NCBI GenBank assembly: GCA_947494695.1
Contig: CANLWB010000009.1
Span: 124,001-188,000, forward strand
Direction: 5' to 3'
Source: an uncultured Flavobacteriaceae bacterium
Lineage (GTDB): Bacteria > Bacteroidota > Bacteroidia > Flavobacteriales > Flavobacteriaceae
DNA: 64,000 nt
In this document: one piece after another, positions 4,905-29,270 of the stretch
Position numbering within the stretch: the stretch's first letter is position 1
Layout of the letters: each line of letters opens with the position of its first letter
Translations under genes and position numbers: made by a program
Notes under the pieces: generated by a model
Database searches by the model: none
What the model was told of the DNA's origin: nothing
What the model saw: only the letters and a program-made list of their open reading frames with translations

Positions 4905-4924
4905 CCTGCCTGCCGGCAGGCAGG
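4905..4924. repeat. 20-bp perfect palindrome (REP-like)
   Basis: CCTGCCTGCCGGCAGGCAGG is a perfect GC-rich palindrome in an AT-rich spacer between two minus-strand genes. Identical copies lie at 28021, 28331 and 28641 inside truncated tRNA copies. It directly follows GGGAATGACAAT, which resembles the end of the other short repeats in this window. Confidence 0.9.
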
Positions 4925-25400: not shown

Positions 25401-27343
25401 GAGCTTACGGACAATTTTTTTGGAATTCATTAGATGGCACTAGTAAAGCCAATTGGAATCAAAAAATAAAAGCTTCAGGTGAAGTTTTATCTGCCTTTCC
25501 TAACAGTGAAGAATACGATGTTGTTATACATGCCTTAAGTCATGAATTGCAAGCCTCTACATGTCATGGTCTTATCTCAAAACATTCAAAAGGAGAAACA
25601 GATACACTCGAACTCAATACCGCGTCATATTTGTTCGATGAGCTACAAAGCGATAACACCTTTTGCATTAGTCAGACAGCACAGGAACTATTAGACAATT
25701 TCCTAAAAGCTCTAGAAGCCAAAGAGGCAACTACTGCATTTAAAACATCTCTTAAAACCGCTTTAAATGATGAAAGTATCACTTTAGATGCTTTACAATT
25801 AGCCATACAATGGGTAGGCTCTTTTATAAAATTGGAAGCTCCCGAATATATTGAATACGTATATGAAGTGGTTGCCCTGATACTCTTTAAAAGTGAAGCA
25901 ACCTCTAAAATTATTCAAGTAACCCCTGCTTTAGTTATTAAAAATTTAAAAGGAAGCCATACATCCATTAGAGAAGGCCTTTTTGAATTTAATTATCATC
26001 ATTTTGTGAATCAGCTACAACACTTCCATGCCGTTGAAGTCCCCTCATTTAATGCCTATCGCGAAGCAAAACATTCGGTTACCGAAACTTTAAAAAATCA
26101 ACTAAAGCTTCAGGAATTTAAACCAAGAGTGCTATCTTCTTTTGTTAGAAATAAACTTATAGATCAGGTCTATTTACCCCTGTTTGGAGATAACTTATCC
26201 AAACAATTAGGAAGTGCAGGCGATACCAAACGTACAGATCGTATGGGGATGCTGTTACTAATTTCGCCTCCTGGTTATGGTAAAACGACCCTAATGGAGT
26301 ATATGGCCAATCGTTTGGGACTTATATTTATGAAAATAAACGGCCCCGCTATTGGTCATGAAGTGACTTCCGTAGACCCGCTAACAGCAAATAACTCCGC
26401 AGCTCGTGAAGAACTTAACAAGCTAAATCTAGCTTTTGAAATGGGTAATAATGTGATGCTCTATTTAGATGATATACAACATTGTAATCCAGAGTTTTTA
26501 CAAAAATTCATATCTCTTGCCGATGGTACACGTAAAATAGAAGGTATTTATAACGGAAAGCCAAAAACTTACGATTTACGCAGCAAGAAGTTTTGTGTCA
26601 TTATGGCTGGGAACCCCTATACGGAAAGTGGTGAAAAATTTCAAATCCCTGATATGTTAGCCAACCGAGCCGACATTTATAATTTAGGTGATGTCATTGG
26701 AGATTCGGCCGATTTATTCAAACTTAGTTTAATTGAAAATGCCCTAACCTCTAACCCGATTCTGCACCAATTAAGTAGTAAGCATTTTGAGGATATCTAT
26801 CAATTAATAGAAGCTGTAGAATCTGGAAATCGCAATAACCTAACCCTTAAAGGCAACCATACAAAACAGGAAACTCAGGATTATTTGGCAGTATTAGATA
26901 AGGTGGTTACCATTCGGAATACAGTATTAATGGTTAATGAAACCTACATTAAATCTGCAGCTATGGACGACAATTACCGCACCGAGCCCTCGTTCAAACT
27001 ACAAGGGTCTTACCGTGATATGAACAAATTAGTTGCTAAGATCGTCCCTATTATGAATGCTCAGGAACTGCAAACCTTGCTATTATCGCATTACGAAAAC
27101 GAATCACAAACCCTTACTAATGCAGCCGAAGCCAATTTGTTGAAATACAAAGAACTTACTGAAACCTTAAAAGATACCGAAATTGAACGCTGGCAAACCA
27201 TTAAAGATACGTTTGTAAAAAACAACAAGCTCAAAGGTTTTGGTAACCAAAATGAAATGGCACAAGTACTCGCCCAAATGATGCAGTTTAGCGAGCATTT
27301 GGAAGGGATACAGAATGTTTTGAAGGATGGTTTGGATAGGTAA
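22451..27343 (+). CDS. Giant AAA+ ATPase ('DNA repair ATPase' type)
   Basis: 1630 aa, no signal peptide. The first 450 residues are beta-rich with motifs such as DNHVYGTHPHISILD; a long helical, coiled-coil section covers about 480-860. The AAA+ module lies near the C-terminus: Walker A PPGYGKTT (Lys1278), Walker B MLYLDDIQ (Asp1340-Asp1341), sensor 1 IMAGNPYT (Asn1388) and NRADIYNLGDV. The layout matches the large bacterial proteins annotated as DNA repair ATPases, whose biochemistry is largely unknown. It follows the flotillin gene on the same strand with a hairpin between. The neighbourhood suggests a membrane-linked remodelling system; a DNA repair role is not shown by sequence. Confidence 0.85.
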   Translation: MEQTNTDNTIELDGGTYEIIQWRLQKQKSELLSRLSQLNDARKNVFGNVETKLIANNRINTENNCIARDIITIGDICLFGYNVHFGLRTEITLADVFSIYVYDNDHFTIQPLDLLEDSTFINDFTNLYKYYRNTVFSKFAIVGNYLHMVFQLSESITDIKTFKWLVNDGKLEYIDNRSEHEFKFPNQHDFNWLEPSRDNHVYGTHPHISILDKVFVETIGGDLTIKIEDNTNDGKGIYNEPVEHSDQTLDDGQYRYADLGNLITLEIKPFQEDPRYFVYNHKIQEVKKIPSIADACLVLPDDQGIIFADGYYLQSGDFKLFENGVSKVKFKKKVSSPNGEDFLYVFYESKKGLYILMSYNVIEQQVKTPIICNGFTILNDGELCYFKTEDEQTKHHVIQIWQTPFIKGDVIPSEHTDTLLYKIGNKDIVKAMAECQALIILLTKEDSYDGLYDDIAKLSNDILNSYYWITEPETFLINEPLKELNEAANAAIDEFEKVVQLRKTATDAIKDIQAKADGIFGKIKSSTFKSIEDFVATLSQLRTLRGEVIGLNDIRYVDTTFITTLEEEIIVQNDKISQRCVQFLLNDKALIPYHNRVVEKETALDHIKKAVDAKKLEDEVNQIASDLEMLIDIVSNLEIEDASHSTKIIDNISLIFATINQLKAGLKNKLKTLGEQEASAEFTAQLKLVDQSIINYLDIATSPEKTDELLNKISVQLEDLEGRFADFEDFISQIIEKREEVYNAFEGRKNSLIEARNKKAIALETSANRILKGVIKKALTFKTTVEINGYFASDLMINKLRDIVTDLKDLDDAGKAEAIETGLKVAKEDAIRKLKDTQDLYEDGENIIKLGKHRFAVNKQPLDLTIVYKNDTLKYHLTGTDFYQTIEDDTLIKSQKYWNQELVSENETIYRSAYLAYKLFSNALFDTNHINDTELLQLVKNESNKNYSEGYIKGVHDEDATKILKALISKHHDLGLLRYEPIVRAYGQFFWNSLDGTSKANWNQKIKASGEVLSAFPNSEEYDVVIHALSHELQASTCHGLISKHSKGETDTLELNTASYLFDELQSDNTFCISQTAQELLDNFLKALEAKEATTAFKTSLKTALNDESITLDALQLAIQWVGSFIKLEAPEYIEYVYEVVALILFKSEATSKIIQVTPALVIKNLKGSHTSIREGLFEFNYHHFVNQLQHFHAVEVPSFNAYREAKHSVTETLKNQLKLQEFKPRVLSSFVRNKLIDQVYLPLFGDNLSKQLGSAGDTKRTDRMGMLLLISPPGYGKTTLMEYMANRLGLIFMKINGPAIGHEVTSVDPLTANNSAAREELNKLNLAFEMGNNVMLYLDDIQHCNPEFLQKFISLADGTRKIEGIYNGKPKTYDLRSKKFCVIMAGNPYTESGEKFQIPDMLANRADIYNLGDVIGDSADLFKLSLIENALTSNPILHQLSSKHFEDIYQLIEAVESGNRNNLTLKGNHTKQETQDYLAVLDKVVTIRNTVLMVNETYIKSAAMDDNYRTEPSFKLQGSYRDMNKLVAKIVPIMNAQELQTLLLSHYENESQTLTNAAEANLLKYKELTETLKDTEIERWQTIKDTFVKNNKLKGFGNQNEMAQVLAQMMQFSEHLEGIQNVLKDGLDR

Positions 27344-27525
27344 AAGAAAACCGTTGTATTTATTTTATGTAGATACTTGTTAGACTCGCCATAGTAGGTT
27401 TGATTGCCTATAATAACATAAAAATGCACATTTTTTGCTAAATCAGGAGACTTTCCGGGGCAGGATTATACGTTTTATAAGAATGAGTTATAAGAATGAA
27501 GCAGCCAGTACCCTAAAAGTGAATT

Positions 27526-27549
27526 AAATTCAAGCAAGCTTGATTTGAC
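27526..27549. repeat. Core copy of the structured hairpin repeat
   Basis: TCAAGC-AA-GCTTGA palindromic core with flanking AAT/TTTG, identical to the inner part of the copy at 27617-27668 but without the outer CATAC/GTATG stem. Confidence 0.6.
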
Positions 27550-27616
27550 TAACAAGTCACTAATAGTGATAATGGGATTACCTGCGGTGATCCCTCAATG
27601 CTCCGCTTTGAAAAAG

Positions 27617-27668
27617 AAAAAACCATACTTACAAATTCAAGCAAGCTTGATTTGACGTATGGTTTTTT
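27617..27668 (-). terminator. Terminator-like hairpin repeat downstream of tRNA-Arg
   Basis: Outer stem AAAAAACCATAC (27617-27628) and GTATGGTTTTTT (27657-27668); inner stem TCAAGC (27637-27642) and GCTTGA (27645-27650). Read on the minus strand it ends in a T run, 11 bp beyond the 3' end of the tRNA. It belongs to the repeat family seen at 19001-19048. Confidence 0.7.
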
Positions 27669-27678
27669 CTTTTATTCG

Positions 27679-27752
27679 TGACCGCGAAGGGATTCGAACC
27701 CCCAACCCTCAGAGCCGAAATCTGATATTCTATCCAGTTGAACTACGCAGCC
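27679..27752 (-). tRNA. tRNA-Arg (anticodon UCG)
   Basis: 74 nt, all arms fold: acceptor GGCTGCG/CGCGGTC, D stem GTTC/GAAT with loop AACTGGATA, anticodon stem TCAGA/TCTGA with loop TTTCGGC (anticodon TCG), T stem GGGGG/CCCTT with loop TTCGAAT, discriminator A. CCA is not encoded. Its first ten bases form the last codons (GCT GCG TAG) of the GIY-YIG gene directly upstream. It is the only complete copy at this locus; three 5' halves lie upstream. With 930 bp of insert between it and the original upstream sequence, its promoter is uncertain and it may rely on read-through plus RNase P. Confidence 0.95.
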
Positions 27753-27988
27753 ATTATTTTACTCTTTAAAAATTCTCTTCCTGAGCCTGTTTTGAAATAT
27801 TTTTCTCTTTTTACTGCCACTTCCCTTGTTTCGAAGGTCTCATAGTACCTTAATATCCATGGGAGATAGCCTTTTGTTGATCTAACTTTACCTGAATTAT
27901 GTTCATGCAAACGGTTTTCTAAATCTTGTGTCTGACCCTTATATAATCGATTATCAATACTACTTTCTAAAACGTAAACATAATACAT
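27743..27988 (-). CDS. Small GIY-YIG nuclease, copy 1
   Basis: 81 aa, the size of single-domain GIY-YIG proteins (UPF0213/YhbQ-like). Motifs: YYVYVLES (GIY-like), LYKGQTQDLENRLHEHNSGK (YIG-like plus the catalytic Arg) and VAVKREKYFKTGSGREFL (metal-binding Glu). All key residues are present, so a single-strand nicking or cleaving nuclease is likely. The last codons, ATG GCT GCG TAG, are the 5' end of the intact tRNA-Arg, so gene and tRNA overlap by 10 bp. Compared with copies 2 and 3 it has Arg instead of Lys in GKVRSTKG. Probable role: mobility of the tRNA-linked repeat; a repair role cannot be excluded. Confidence 0.85.
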   Translation of the reverse strand: MYYVYVLESSIDNRLYKGQTQDLENRLHEHNSGKVRSTKGYLPWILRYYETFETREVAVKREKYFKTGSGREFLKSKIMAA

Positions 27989-28004
27989 TTTTATACAATT
28001 TAAA

Positions 28005-28062
28005 CCGAAATCTGATATTCCCTGCCTGCCGGCAGGCAGGTATCCAGTTGAACTACGCAGCC
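28005..28062 (-). pseudogene. tRNA-Arg 5' half A, interrupted by a palindrome
   Basis: Minus strand: tRNA bases 1 to A21 (28062-28041), the 20-bp palindrome (28040-28021), then G22 to G37 (28020-28005). It stops right after the anticodon, between positions 37 and 38, and continues as TTTAAATTGTATAAAA into the leader of GIY-YIG copy 1. Confidence 0.9.
28021..28040. repeat. 20-bp palindrome inside tRNA half A
   Basis: CCTGCCTGCCGGCAGGCAGG, placed between A21 (end of D loop) and G22 of the tRNA copy, with no duplication of target bases visible. Confidence 0.92.
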
Positions 28063-28298
28063 ATTATTTTACTCTTTAAAAATTCTCTTCCTGAGCCTGT
28101 TTTGAAATATTTTTCTCTTTTTAATGCCACTTCCCTTGTTTCGAAGGTCTCATAGTACCTTAATATCCATGGGAGATAGCCTTTTGTTGATTTAACTTTG
28201 CCTGAATTATGTTCATGCAAACGGTTTTCTAAATCTTGTGTCTGACCCTTATATAATCGATTATCAATACTACTTTCTAAGACGTAAACATAATACAT
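28053..28298 (-). CDS. Small GIY-YIG nuclease, copy 2
   Basis: 81 aa, differing from copy 1 at two residues (Lys in GKVKSTKG, Leu in VALKREKYF). Catalytic positions are unchanged. As in the other copies, the stop codon is supplied by the 5' end of a tRNA-Arg sequence, here the truncated half A. The leader begins directly at the anticodon of half B. A purine-rich Shine-Dalgarno site is not evident, which is normal in this phylum. All three frames are intact, which argues either for very recent duplication or for selection on the protein. Confidence 0.83.
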   Translation of the reverse strand: MYYVYVLESSIDNRLYKGQTQDLENRLHEHNSGKVKSTKGYLPWILRYYETFETREVALKREKYFKTGSGREFLKSKIMAA

Positions 28299-28314
28299 TT
28301 TTATACAATTTAAA

Positions 28315-28372
28315 CCGAAATCTGATATTCCCTGCCTGCCGGCAGGCAGGTATCCAGTTGAACTACGCAGCC
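28315..28372 (-). pseudogene. tRNA-Arg 5' half B, interrupted by a palindrome
   Basis: Same structure as half A: bases 1-21 at 28372-28351, palindrome at 28350-28331, bases 22-37 at 28330-28315, then the leader of GIY-YIG copy 2. Confidence 0.9.
28331..28350. repeat. 20-bp palindrome inside tRNA half B
   Basis: Identical to the copies at 4905, 28021 and 28641, at the same D-loop position. Confidence 0.92.
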
Positions 28373-28608
28373 ATTATTTTACTCTTTAAAAATTCTCTTC
28401 CTGAGCCTGTTTTGAAATATTTTTCTCTTTTTACTGCCGCTTCCCTTGTTTCGACGGTCTCATAGTACCTTAATATCCATGGGAGATAGCCTTTTGTTGA
28501 TTTAACTTTACCTGAATTATGTTCATGCAAACGATTTTCTAAATCTTGTGTCTGACCCTTATATAATCGATTATCAATACTACTTTCTAAAACGTAAACA
28601 TAATACAT
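28363..28608 (-). CDS. Small GIY-YIG nuclease, copy 3
   Basis: 81 aa with VETREAAVKREKYF where copies 1 and 2 have FETREVA(V/L)KREKYF. All motif residues (YVYVLES, LYKGQT, RLHEHN and the Glu of KREKYF) are kept. It ends, like the others, in codons shared with a tRNA 5' end (half B). It is the copy nearest to the original upstream flank of the tRNA locus. Relative age cannot be judged from so few differences. Confidence 0.83.
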   Translation of the reverse strand: MYYVYVLESSIDNRLYKGQTQDLENRLHEHNSGKVKSTKGYLPWILRYYETVETREAAVKREKYFKTGSGREFLKSKIMAA

Positions 28609-28624
28609 TTTTATATAATTTAAA

Positions 28625-28682
28625 CCGAAATCTGATATTCCCTGCCTGCCGGCAGGCAGGTATCCAGTTGAACTACGCAGCC
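28625..28682 (-). pseudogene. tRNA-Arg 5' half C, interrupted by a palindrome
   Basis: Bases 1-21 at 28682-28661, palindrome 28660-28641, bases 22-37 at 28640-28625. It is the outermost copy and so probably sits where the original tRNA promoter acted. Just upstream (28687-28705) is a further small hairpin, CCTGC-TAAA-GCAGG. Confidence 0.9.
28641..28660. repeat. 20-bp palindrome inside tRNA half C
   Basis: Identical to the other three copies in the window. Confidence 0.92.
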
Positions 28683-28820
28683 ATTATTCCCTGCTAAAGC
28701 AGGAATTTTTTAATTTTTTATTAGTTGTCATTATAAACTTGAGAAATCTTGCAATTAAGAGATTCCTCCTCATACTTCGTTCGGAATGACAAATTAGTCA
28801 TCATAATTGGTGCTGTTAAT

Positions 28821-29270
28821 TTATGCTAACTTCTGTCTTACAATATTCGAAATCGTCTTCCCATCAGCGCGTCCTGCAAGCTCCTTGCTTACAATTCCCA
28901 TCACCTTACCCATGTCTTTCATTCCTTCTGCTCCTACCTCATCAATAGTCATGACTACAACCTTTTCTATCTCTTCTTCACTCAAGGCTTCTGGTAAAAA
29001 CTGACCTATAATATCTGCCTCGGCTAATTCGGGGGCCGCTAAATCTTCTCGTCCCTGTTCCATGAATACCGCAGCACTATCCTTACGCTGTTTTACCTGC
29101 TTTTGAAGTATTTTAAGCTCCTGCTCCTCTGTTAAATCTTCTTTAGCTCCACTCTCGGTTTGTGCTAATAAAATAGCCGATTTAACAGCCCGTAAAGCCG
29201 TTAAAGCCGTTTGATCCTTAGCTTTCATTGCTTCTTTTAAAGCAGACATAACATCTTGTTGTAAACTCAT
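28821..29270 (-). CDS. GatB/YqeY domain-containing protein
   Basis: 149 aa, full length for the YqeY family. N-terminus MSLQQDVMSALKEAMKAKDQ followed by LTALRAVKSAILLAQTESGAK, then a helical C-terminal domain with EEIEKVVVMTIDEVGAEGMKDMGKVMG and GRADGKTISNIVRQKL, the usual YqeY motifs. It is related to the tRNA-binding tail domain of GatB and is thought to act on aminoacyl-tRNA or translation, but the exact role is open. It lies downstream of ftsZ, with the dcw terminator between, so it is probably transcribed separately, as is common in flavobacteria. Confidence 0.93.
   Translation of the reverse strand: MSLQQDVMSALKEAMKAKDQTALTALRAVKSAILLAQTESGAKEDLTEEQELKILQKQVKQRKDSAAVFMEQGREDLAAPELAEADIIGQFLPEALSEEEIEKVVVMTIDEVGAEGMKDMGKVMGIVSKELAGRADGKTISNIVRQKLA

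Follow-up and report, generated by a model that had tools for sequence, protein, structure and literature searches.

What kind of genetic unit stands three times in tandem before a single tRNA gene, each copy headed by a broken piece of that same tRNA? The question is raised by an array of 310-bp units, each with a gene for a GIY-YIG nuclease, at tRNA-Arg(UCG) in DNA of an uncultured Flavobacteriaceae bacterium (assembly GCA_947494695.1, contig CANLWB010000009.1, positions 124,001 to 188,000; this 64,000-nucleotide stretch, analysed whole, is called the window). The 310-bp unit is probably a minimal mobile element with one gene that inserts at a tRNA gene, restores the tRNA and retains a hairpin-marked remnant of it. 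At the level of sequence comparison, this reading is carried by the architecture of the array, the empty sites in relatives, the link of homologues to tRNA genes, the placement of hairpins within remnants, purifying selection on the gene and, at one locus, conservation of the remnant core.

On the minus strand, three units in exact 310-bp register precede the intact tRNA-Arg(UCG), which gives a 59-bit match to RF00005 (27679-27752; Rfam) and is the sole full-length match in its own genome. Each unit comprises tRNA bases 1-38 (in sequence numbering, by which the anticodon of tRNA-Arg lies at 35-37), a 16-nt leader and an open reading frame (ORF) of 81 amino acids (aa), whose final codons, ATG GCT GCG TAG, overlap tRNA bases 1-10. 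An earlier interpretation from the letters of the window (the sequence-only reading) had described three 310-bp units before an intact tRNA-Arg(UCG), with each nuclease gene ending in the first ten bases of the next tRNA, and ARAGORN, Rfam and the 310-bp direct repeat bear this out. It was also right about the 5′ half, the leader and the gene as parts of the unit, and overlooked a perfect 20-bp palindrome, CCTGCCTGCCGGCAGGCAGG, which splits each remnant between tRNA bases 22 and 23 (bases 1-22, palindrome, bases 23-38). Pairwise, the units differ at 7, 5 and 4 of 310 positions, and all differences lie in the leader or the gene and none in the remnant, a distribution that is not significant. 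An array by chance is excluded because of the 310-bp direct repeat and because the window holds four such palindromes against none in 100 shuffles. RNA folding was uninformative, with a z of -0.61 for one remnant and -0.34 for the intact tRNA. The assembly is a 77-contig draft, and the copy number of the array is given as assembled.

Table. Coordinates of the array and its neighbour in the window.
Feature	Position	Strand	Basis
Intact tRNA-Arg(UCG)	27678..27752	-	ARAGORN; Rfam; genome copy check
Unit 1, first in transcription order: tRNA 1-22, palindrome, tRNA 23-38, 16-nt leader, GIY-YIG gene	28379..28688	-	
Unit 2	28069..28378	-	
Unit 3	27759..28068	-	
81-aa GIY-YIG ORF, unit 1, stop within next tRNA sequence	28363..28608	-	
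81-aa GIY-YIG ORF, unit 2	28053..28298	-	
81-aa GIY-YIG ORF, unit 3, stop within intact tRNA	27743..27988	-	
Remnant of unit 1	28661..28682 (tRNA bases 1-22); 28625-28640 (bases 23-38)	-	
Remnant of unit 2	28351..28372 (tRNA bases 1-22); 28315-28330 (bases 23-38)	-	
Remnant of unit 3	28041..28062 (tRNA bases 1-22); 28005-28020 (bases 23-38)	-	
Perfect 20-bp palindrome, D-loop of remnant 1	28641..28660	.	
Perfect 20-bp palindrome, D-loop of remnant 2	28331..28350	.	
Perfect 20-bp palindrome, D-loop of remnant 3	28021..28040	.	
149-aa ORF, presumably yqeY-like; conserved neighbour for empty-site test, outside the element	28821..29270	-	

All three array ORFs belong to the GIY-YIG superfamily, matching Pfam PF01541 (E 2e-16 to 1e-15) with 58-60 bits against a cut-off of 22.6. 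This is the sole Pfam family reported for the protein, and the match spans residues 1-69 of 81, leaving little beyond the GIY-YIG domain; no NCBIfam family was found above the cut-off for four proteins. Nine residues are invariant in 26 proteins, including Y5, Y16, G18, R26, H30 and E62, and we take the conserved Tyr, Gly, Arg and Glu of GIY-YIG to be the catalytic residues. The ratio of non-synonymous to synonymous change (dN/dS), a crude count, was 0.19 and 0.12 in comparison with the homologues at loci L016 and L015, respectively, and 0.06-0.37 among four congeners; by this measure the gene is under purifying selection. The nearest solved structures by sequence, PDB 1ywl (E 5e-6) and 1zg2 (E 2.6e-5), are small UPF0213 GIY-YIG proteins that resemble the array protein in fold family and size, and their record names no function.

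Homologues were gathered by protein similarity alone in three samples, 168 loci in total: 56 from a genome-contig search, 11 from relatives and 101 from a class-wide search, in which 79 of 295 genomes, all from one class, were matched and every match place outside the array's own genome was taken, with nearby places merged. An intact tRNA gene lay within 160 bp on the same strand at 110 loci (28/56, 10/11 and 72/101) and on the opposite strand at none; when the three near-identical pairs among the loci are merged, a tRNA is present at 108 of 165. In the three samples, tRNA density was 1.20, 1.93 and 1.58 per kb near the gene and 0.05, 0.00 and 0.01 per kb at a distance of 600-1500 bp (for scale, the search cut-off yields 37 tRNA genes in the 5.49 Mb of the array's own genome). 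Sixteen tRNA isotypes are represented, and the records with an adjacent tRNA include Bacteroidota, Patescibacteria, Omnitrophota and Ignavibacteria. In the array's own genome, tRNA-Pro is also accompanied by GIY-YIG frames, within an array at tRNA-Pro(GGG) and beside tRNA-Pro(TGG); both have an internal stop. At locus L072 (1501-1740), a homologous GIY-YIG ORF lies within a 23S rRNA gene match, and at L061 (1415-2318) a GIY-YIG unit is located 5′ of a tRNA that is split by a group I intron match.

A significant remnant of the adjacent tRNA was found in 97 of 114 locus/tRNA pairs. Two forms occur, one in the order remnant, gene, intact tRNA (5′ form) and the other in the order intact tRNA, gene, 3′ remnant (3′ form), some of the latter with a copied terminator; closely related proteins in the tree include both forms, for example at Arg(TCG), Arg(CCT), Leu(CAA) and Ala. 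The proposal that the element brings its own 5′ half thus describes the 5′ form and has to be widened to include units that restore the 3′ part. Similarly, the break that the sequence-only reading had placed between bases 37 and 38 fits the remnants here, and it is not general, because 5′ remnant ends range from base 17 to base 80 and fall at 36-39 in 8 of 64 units. Cutting in the anticodon loop, which the same reading had suggested, is unsupported; here, the discontinuity relative to the empty site lies at bases 22/23.

Hairpins mark the remnants at other loci as well, with sequences that vary from locus to locus. By a strict rule (a folding insertion of at least 14 nt) they were found in 65 of the 97 pairs. 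The 78 insertions that could be placed comprise 37 D-loop, 15 T-loop and 11 anticodon-loop cases, together with 9 at junctions, 4 in stems, 1 in the variable loop and 1 elsewhere. The stem count compares with 30.5 expected, and 20,000 simulations never gave a count this low. By a second rule, 72 of the 97 remnants, versus 41 of 482 control windows, contain a perfect foreign hairpin. Eighteen of the 32 remnants that failed the strict rule were printed and inspected by eye; in all but L182 (17 remnants), a hairpin either takes the place of an arm or comes after one. At tRNA-Leu(CAA), the 40-nt core of remnant plus hairpin is on average 97.1% identical over 21 genome pairs (7 of the 8 occupied genomes, G010 being omitted as its remnant is split by three hairpins); the gene (78.7%), the spacer (72.1%) and the upstream flank (89.5%) all show lower identity. 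The remnant hairpin at this locus is probably a working part, because the core is conserved above the gene and because conversion with the intact tRNA cannot maintain a hairpin.

Could the hairpins instead be independent repeats, similar to repetitive extragenic palindromic (REP) sequences or miniature inverted-repeat transposable elements, that accumulate in dead tRNA remnants and do not belong to the element? Their sequence differences between loci would be consistent with this, as would the dispersal of the 20-bp palindrome, which occurs in 33 of the 295 class genomes and lies within 200 bp of a tRNA in 3 of 28 examined copies; insertions into a working tRNA would be lost, leaving remnants as the sink. 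We nevertheless consider it unlikely, since it does not account for the core being the best-conserved part of the element at the Leu locus, nor for hairpins of the element lying in tRNA loops when 1 of 27 solo palindromes lies in a hairpin loop. Moreover, in the tRNA-Met 3′ forms L054, L069 and L073 the T-loop hairpin holds its position despite changing in sequence, and palindrome-bearing genomes more often contain the tRNA-type nuclease (18/32 versus 60/262; p 1.8e-4, uncorrected for phylogeny).

The palindrome itself has six exact copies in the array's own genome, three in the array, one at L010 and two solo. At L010 (about position 1501), a tRNA-Thr 3′ remnant carries it in the T-arm, and this remnant adjoins an intact tRNA-Thr with no intervening nuclease gene; one solo copy, at 4905-4924 of the window, is intergenic. 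A second palindrome, TCAAATCAAGCTTGCTTGAATTTG, which has three genome copies when up to 2 mismatches are allowed, lies in the loop of a terminator-like hairpin 3′ of tRNA-Arg (27610-27675). A general rule by which palindromes enter the loops of any hairpin was rejected on the count of solo copies given above.

To return to the mobile element, sites without it are found in relatives at both tRNA loci compared, as with the endonuclease-free alleles of homing systems. The neighbour ORF followed by tRNA-Arg(UCG) is present in 29 of 30 fetched loci, of which 26 have an empty site and 3 carry an element; of the 12 congeners, 10 are empty at this tRNA. The third occupied locus belongs to a genome of another genus (genome G029); its proteins are 41-42% identical to the query and its hairpin is different, so that more than one lineage has probably entered the site. 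Of the 12 congeners compared at tRNA-Leu(CAA), 8 carry the element and 3 are empty; the remaining one (G005) has a hairpin scar with no gene, made up of tRNA bases 1-12, a hairpin and a short further stretch of the tRNA, located before the intact tRNA (L254). The stretch that separates the neighbour ORF from the array contains a REP-like GTCATTCCGA...GGAATC repeat (28781), which occupies the equivalent position in an empty congener (G011, L083); in two congeners (L087 and L092), extended tracts of a 7-bp repeat (CTGAATA or CTGAACA type) are located just upstream of the empty tRNA-Arg.

The restored tRNA-Arg is identical to the tRNA of several empty congeners, and bases 1-44 of tRNA-Leu do not differ between occupied and empty genomes. 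Because the restored tRNA is unchanged, insertion would, unlike ordinary homing, regenerate its own site, and arrays are therefore possible. Arrays are indeed widespread, with up to ten matches at a spacing of 457 bp. The sequence-only reading had them built by repeated insertion. For the array studied here, tandem expansion is the simpler account, and its three near-identical units most likely reflect such expansion after a single insertion; at L029, however, two unlike units precede a single tRNA-Lys and are separate in the protein tree, which indicates independent insertions with limited tree support.

Tandem duplication may well be the source of the copy number here, and the alternative that it explains everything, a chromosomal GIY-YIG gene and a tRNA 5′ end having been amplified by unequal crossing-over in the absence of any mobile element, is favoured by the near-identity of the units and by the constant spacing of tandem copies in relatives. 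This is improbable as a full account, as it leaves unexplained the layout shared at 16 isotypes in several phyla, the empty congener sites, the 3′ forms and the unlike units at tRNA-Lys. The two results that the sequence-only reading had named as speaking against an element, homologues scattered with no link to tRNA genes and an array formed by duplication with no empty allele in relatives, were not found; a minimal element that restores its tRNA is therefore the best reading, consistent with the tRNA link, the remnants and the empty sites.

The manner in which the target is recognized bears on a further alternative, in which a transcript of the remnant and hairpin is a guide RNA that steers the nuclease to its cognate tRNA gene. 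The protein is a near-bare GIY-YIG domain, yet homologues about 50-60% identical to it adjoin many different tRNAs, and the remnants match the cognate tRNA. When isotype was mapped on the protein tree, however, 41 changes were needed compared with a shuffled mean of 84.3 and a minimum of 77; the target isotype tracks the protein, and targeting set by the protein is therefore favoured over an RNA guide. As 3′-form remnants are also located after a terminator-like hairpin, we hold a guide RNA to be very improbable. It is harder still to credit that the protein is a toxin cleaving tRNA, with the hairpin-marked remnant as its RNA antidote: a gene, its cognate tRNA and a conserved altered piece of that tRNA do stand side by side, but known GIY-YIG enzymes cut DNA, the remnants are mostly half tRNAs, and a sister clade lies among DNA repeats rather than tRNAs. 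Finally, a tRNA intron at 37/38, of group I or archaeal type, deserves almost no credence and was rejected, for although the remnant here stops after sequence base 38, an uninterrupted tRNA adjoins it, no Rfam intron family was found in 27300-29000 at E<=1, remnant ends vary widely between loci, and the group I intron at L061 lies in the adjacent tRNA, on the downstream side of the gene.

The element that we favour would work as follows. Its sole gene would encode a nuclease of about 80 aa with a tRNA gene as target, and it would arrive with a second copy of the 5′ or, depending on the form, the 3′ portion of the tRNA, rebuilding an intact tRNA on one side. The old part would be left on the opposite side as a remnant whose loops bear at least one hairpin, and this remnant would be retained as part of the element. 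The unchanged tRNA would constitute a regenerated site, at which further insertion, or recombination between units, could build arrays. The enzyme may cut the tRNA gene or the hairpin and so initiate recombination, and the hairpin-marked remnant might act as a binding site, as a decoy that is left uncut or as a transposition end.

Several observations weigh against this reading. The element is known from sequence, and its movement and cutting are inferred. No same-strand tRNA lies within 160 bp at 58 of the 168 loci, a significant remnant is absent in 17 of the 114 pairs, and a few significant pairs, such as L029/Arg and L032, align to neighbouring tRNAs and not to a remnant. The restored tRNA is unchanged, and the insertion-protected site of homing systems was not found. 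Phage or plasmid as the usual home was rejected, three phage records and one plasmid record giving weak matches (38-42% identity), and no vector is therefore known.

Related GIY-YIG proteins are associated with other repeats. At 16 loci, short end motifs of the ACCCNGTGAAATAA type flank the gene; the inverted repeat exceeds all 30 shuffles in 11 of these, whereas L037, L045, L048, L052 and L065, in which the shuffles were not beaten, are labelled by the shared end motif. At several inverted-repeat loci the insertion is close to the beginning of an NAD-epimerase gene, and a complete gene follows downstream. All 5 of those tested proved to be epimerases, and no hairpin was seen in the printed epimerase remnants. 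A further group, of proteins of about 100 aa, was sampled at 29 fetched loci (at most one per genome, own genome excluded). None has a tRNA within 160 bp, and 18 have repeats on both sides (9 inverted, 12 direct, some both; some direct repeats in the count are not clearly REP-like) versus 0 of 29 neighbour-ORF controls. Canonical GTCAT hairpins lie within about 350 bp at 11 of the 29 loci, on both sides at 7, compared with 4 of 29 and 0 in the control, and at 1 of 101 in the tRNA-type sample. The tRNA, inverted-repeat and REP groups are separable on the tree with 2 changes, a result that for the REP group is partly by construction because that group was defined by its own search query. Clear flanking repeats are found in the sister clade only; at the array, the dispersed palindrome lies within the tRNA remnant.

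CGTC REPs seemingly have no dedicated transposase, and no RAYT or IS200 gene is flanked by CGTC units, according to the available part of one source (PMC3733652). Genomes with a CGTC-like pattern carry the group of about 100 aa more often (10/17 versus 77/277; p 0.012, uncorrected for phylogeny). In the array's own genome, three other small GIY-YIG ORFs are located between 31-nt inverted repeats that are 97% complementary and of CGTC-REP type (L005), among 9 copies of a 29-nt repeat (L006) and in a 109-bp repeat array (L008). These observations raise the possibility, which we put forward tentatively, that small GIY-YIG proteins make up a novel transposase class that acts on hairpin DNA, with clades for tRNA units (the remnant serving as working end), for inverted-repeat units of about 290 bp and for REP palindromes including CGTC. 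If so, widespread palindromes would be non-autonomous members of these families. Relatives of the element are a testable candidate for the missing mobiliser of CGTC-type REPs. Among the matches listed from open-licence PubMed Central, no paper described GIY-YIG genes as mobilisers of REPs, or bacterial elements of the GIY-YIG type that lie in tRNA genes and have hairpin-bearing remnants.

At about 310 bp and with one 81-aa protein, the unit is among the smallest candidate autonomous mobile elements. It could settle at a tRNA gene because the gene is put back, and it would explain both the small GIY-YIG genes beside tRNAs and the broken, hairpin-bearing tRNA pieces in Bacteroidota, Patescibacteria and other groups. 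It also raises a puzzle, namely how a nuclease gene coexists with a regenerated and unchanged target. Integrase-borne elements likewise enter tRNA genes, make the tRNA whole again from a copy that they bring and can form tandem arrays, but they encode an integrase and are much larger than 310 bp; the unit contains no integrase, its only family-matched ORF being GIY-YIG. REPtrons, which combine RAYT tyrosine transposases with REP palindromes, share with the element a small nuclease gene and short palindromes that also occur solo in the genome, as described in the part of the source available (PMC3733652). They differ in that RAYT belongs to a separate enzyme family, GIY-YIG being the sole one that Pfam reports here, and in that the hairpin of the element lies inside a tRNA remnant.

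Closer parallels come from fungal mitochondria and from a phage. In fungal mORFs with duplicated gene ends (Allomyces atp6; Glomus atp6, atp9, cox2 and nad3), an endonuclease ORF lies in a conserved gene, its carried copy replaces part of the resident gene and the displaced part remains; the Glomus atp9 mORF even encodes a GIY-YIG enzyme (PMC3630166, available part). An ORF between a rebuilt target and a displaced remnant is likewise what was found in the 97 pairs with a significant remnant and in the epimerase cases. Unlike the element, mORFs reside in mitochondria, in protein genes and at gene 3′ ends, with larger ORFs; no hairpin-marked remnant, tRNA target or array is described in that part of the source, and the inserted ends of mORFs have diverged, whereas the restored tRNA here matches empty congeners, the carried part showing no difference from the resident one (PMC3630166). 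SegB of phage T6, a GIY-YIG homing endonuclease near tRNAs, co-localises with tRNA genes of many isotypes, is implicated in cutting tRNA-containing DNA and drives tandem amplification of a unit of tRNA and endonuclease gene, with microhomology between the tRNA 5′ end and the gene 3′ end (PMC13096335, available part). It is a phage gene with a far larger repeat unit of 718 bp, and the same part of the source describes neither a hairpin-marked tRNA remnant nor a restored chromosomal tRNA (PMC13096335). Taken together, the comparisons indicate that the element resembles mORFs and SegB, and that it differs from them in host, target, size, hairpin-marked remnants and regeneration of its site.

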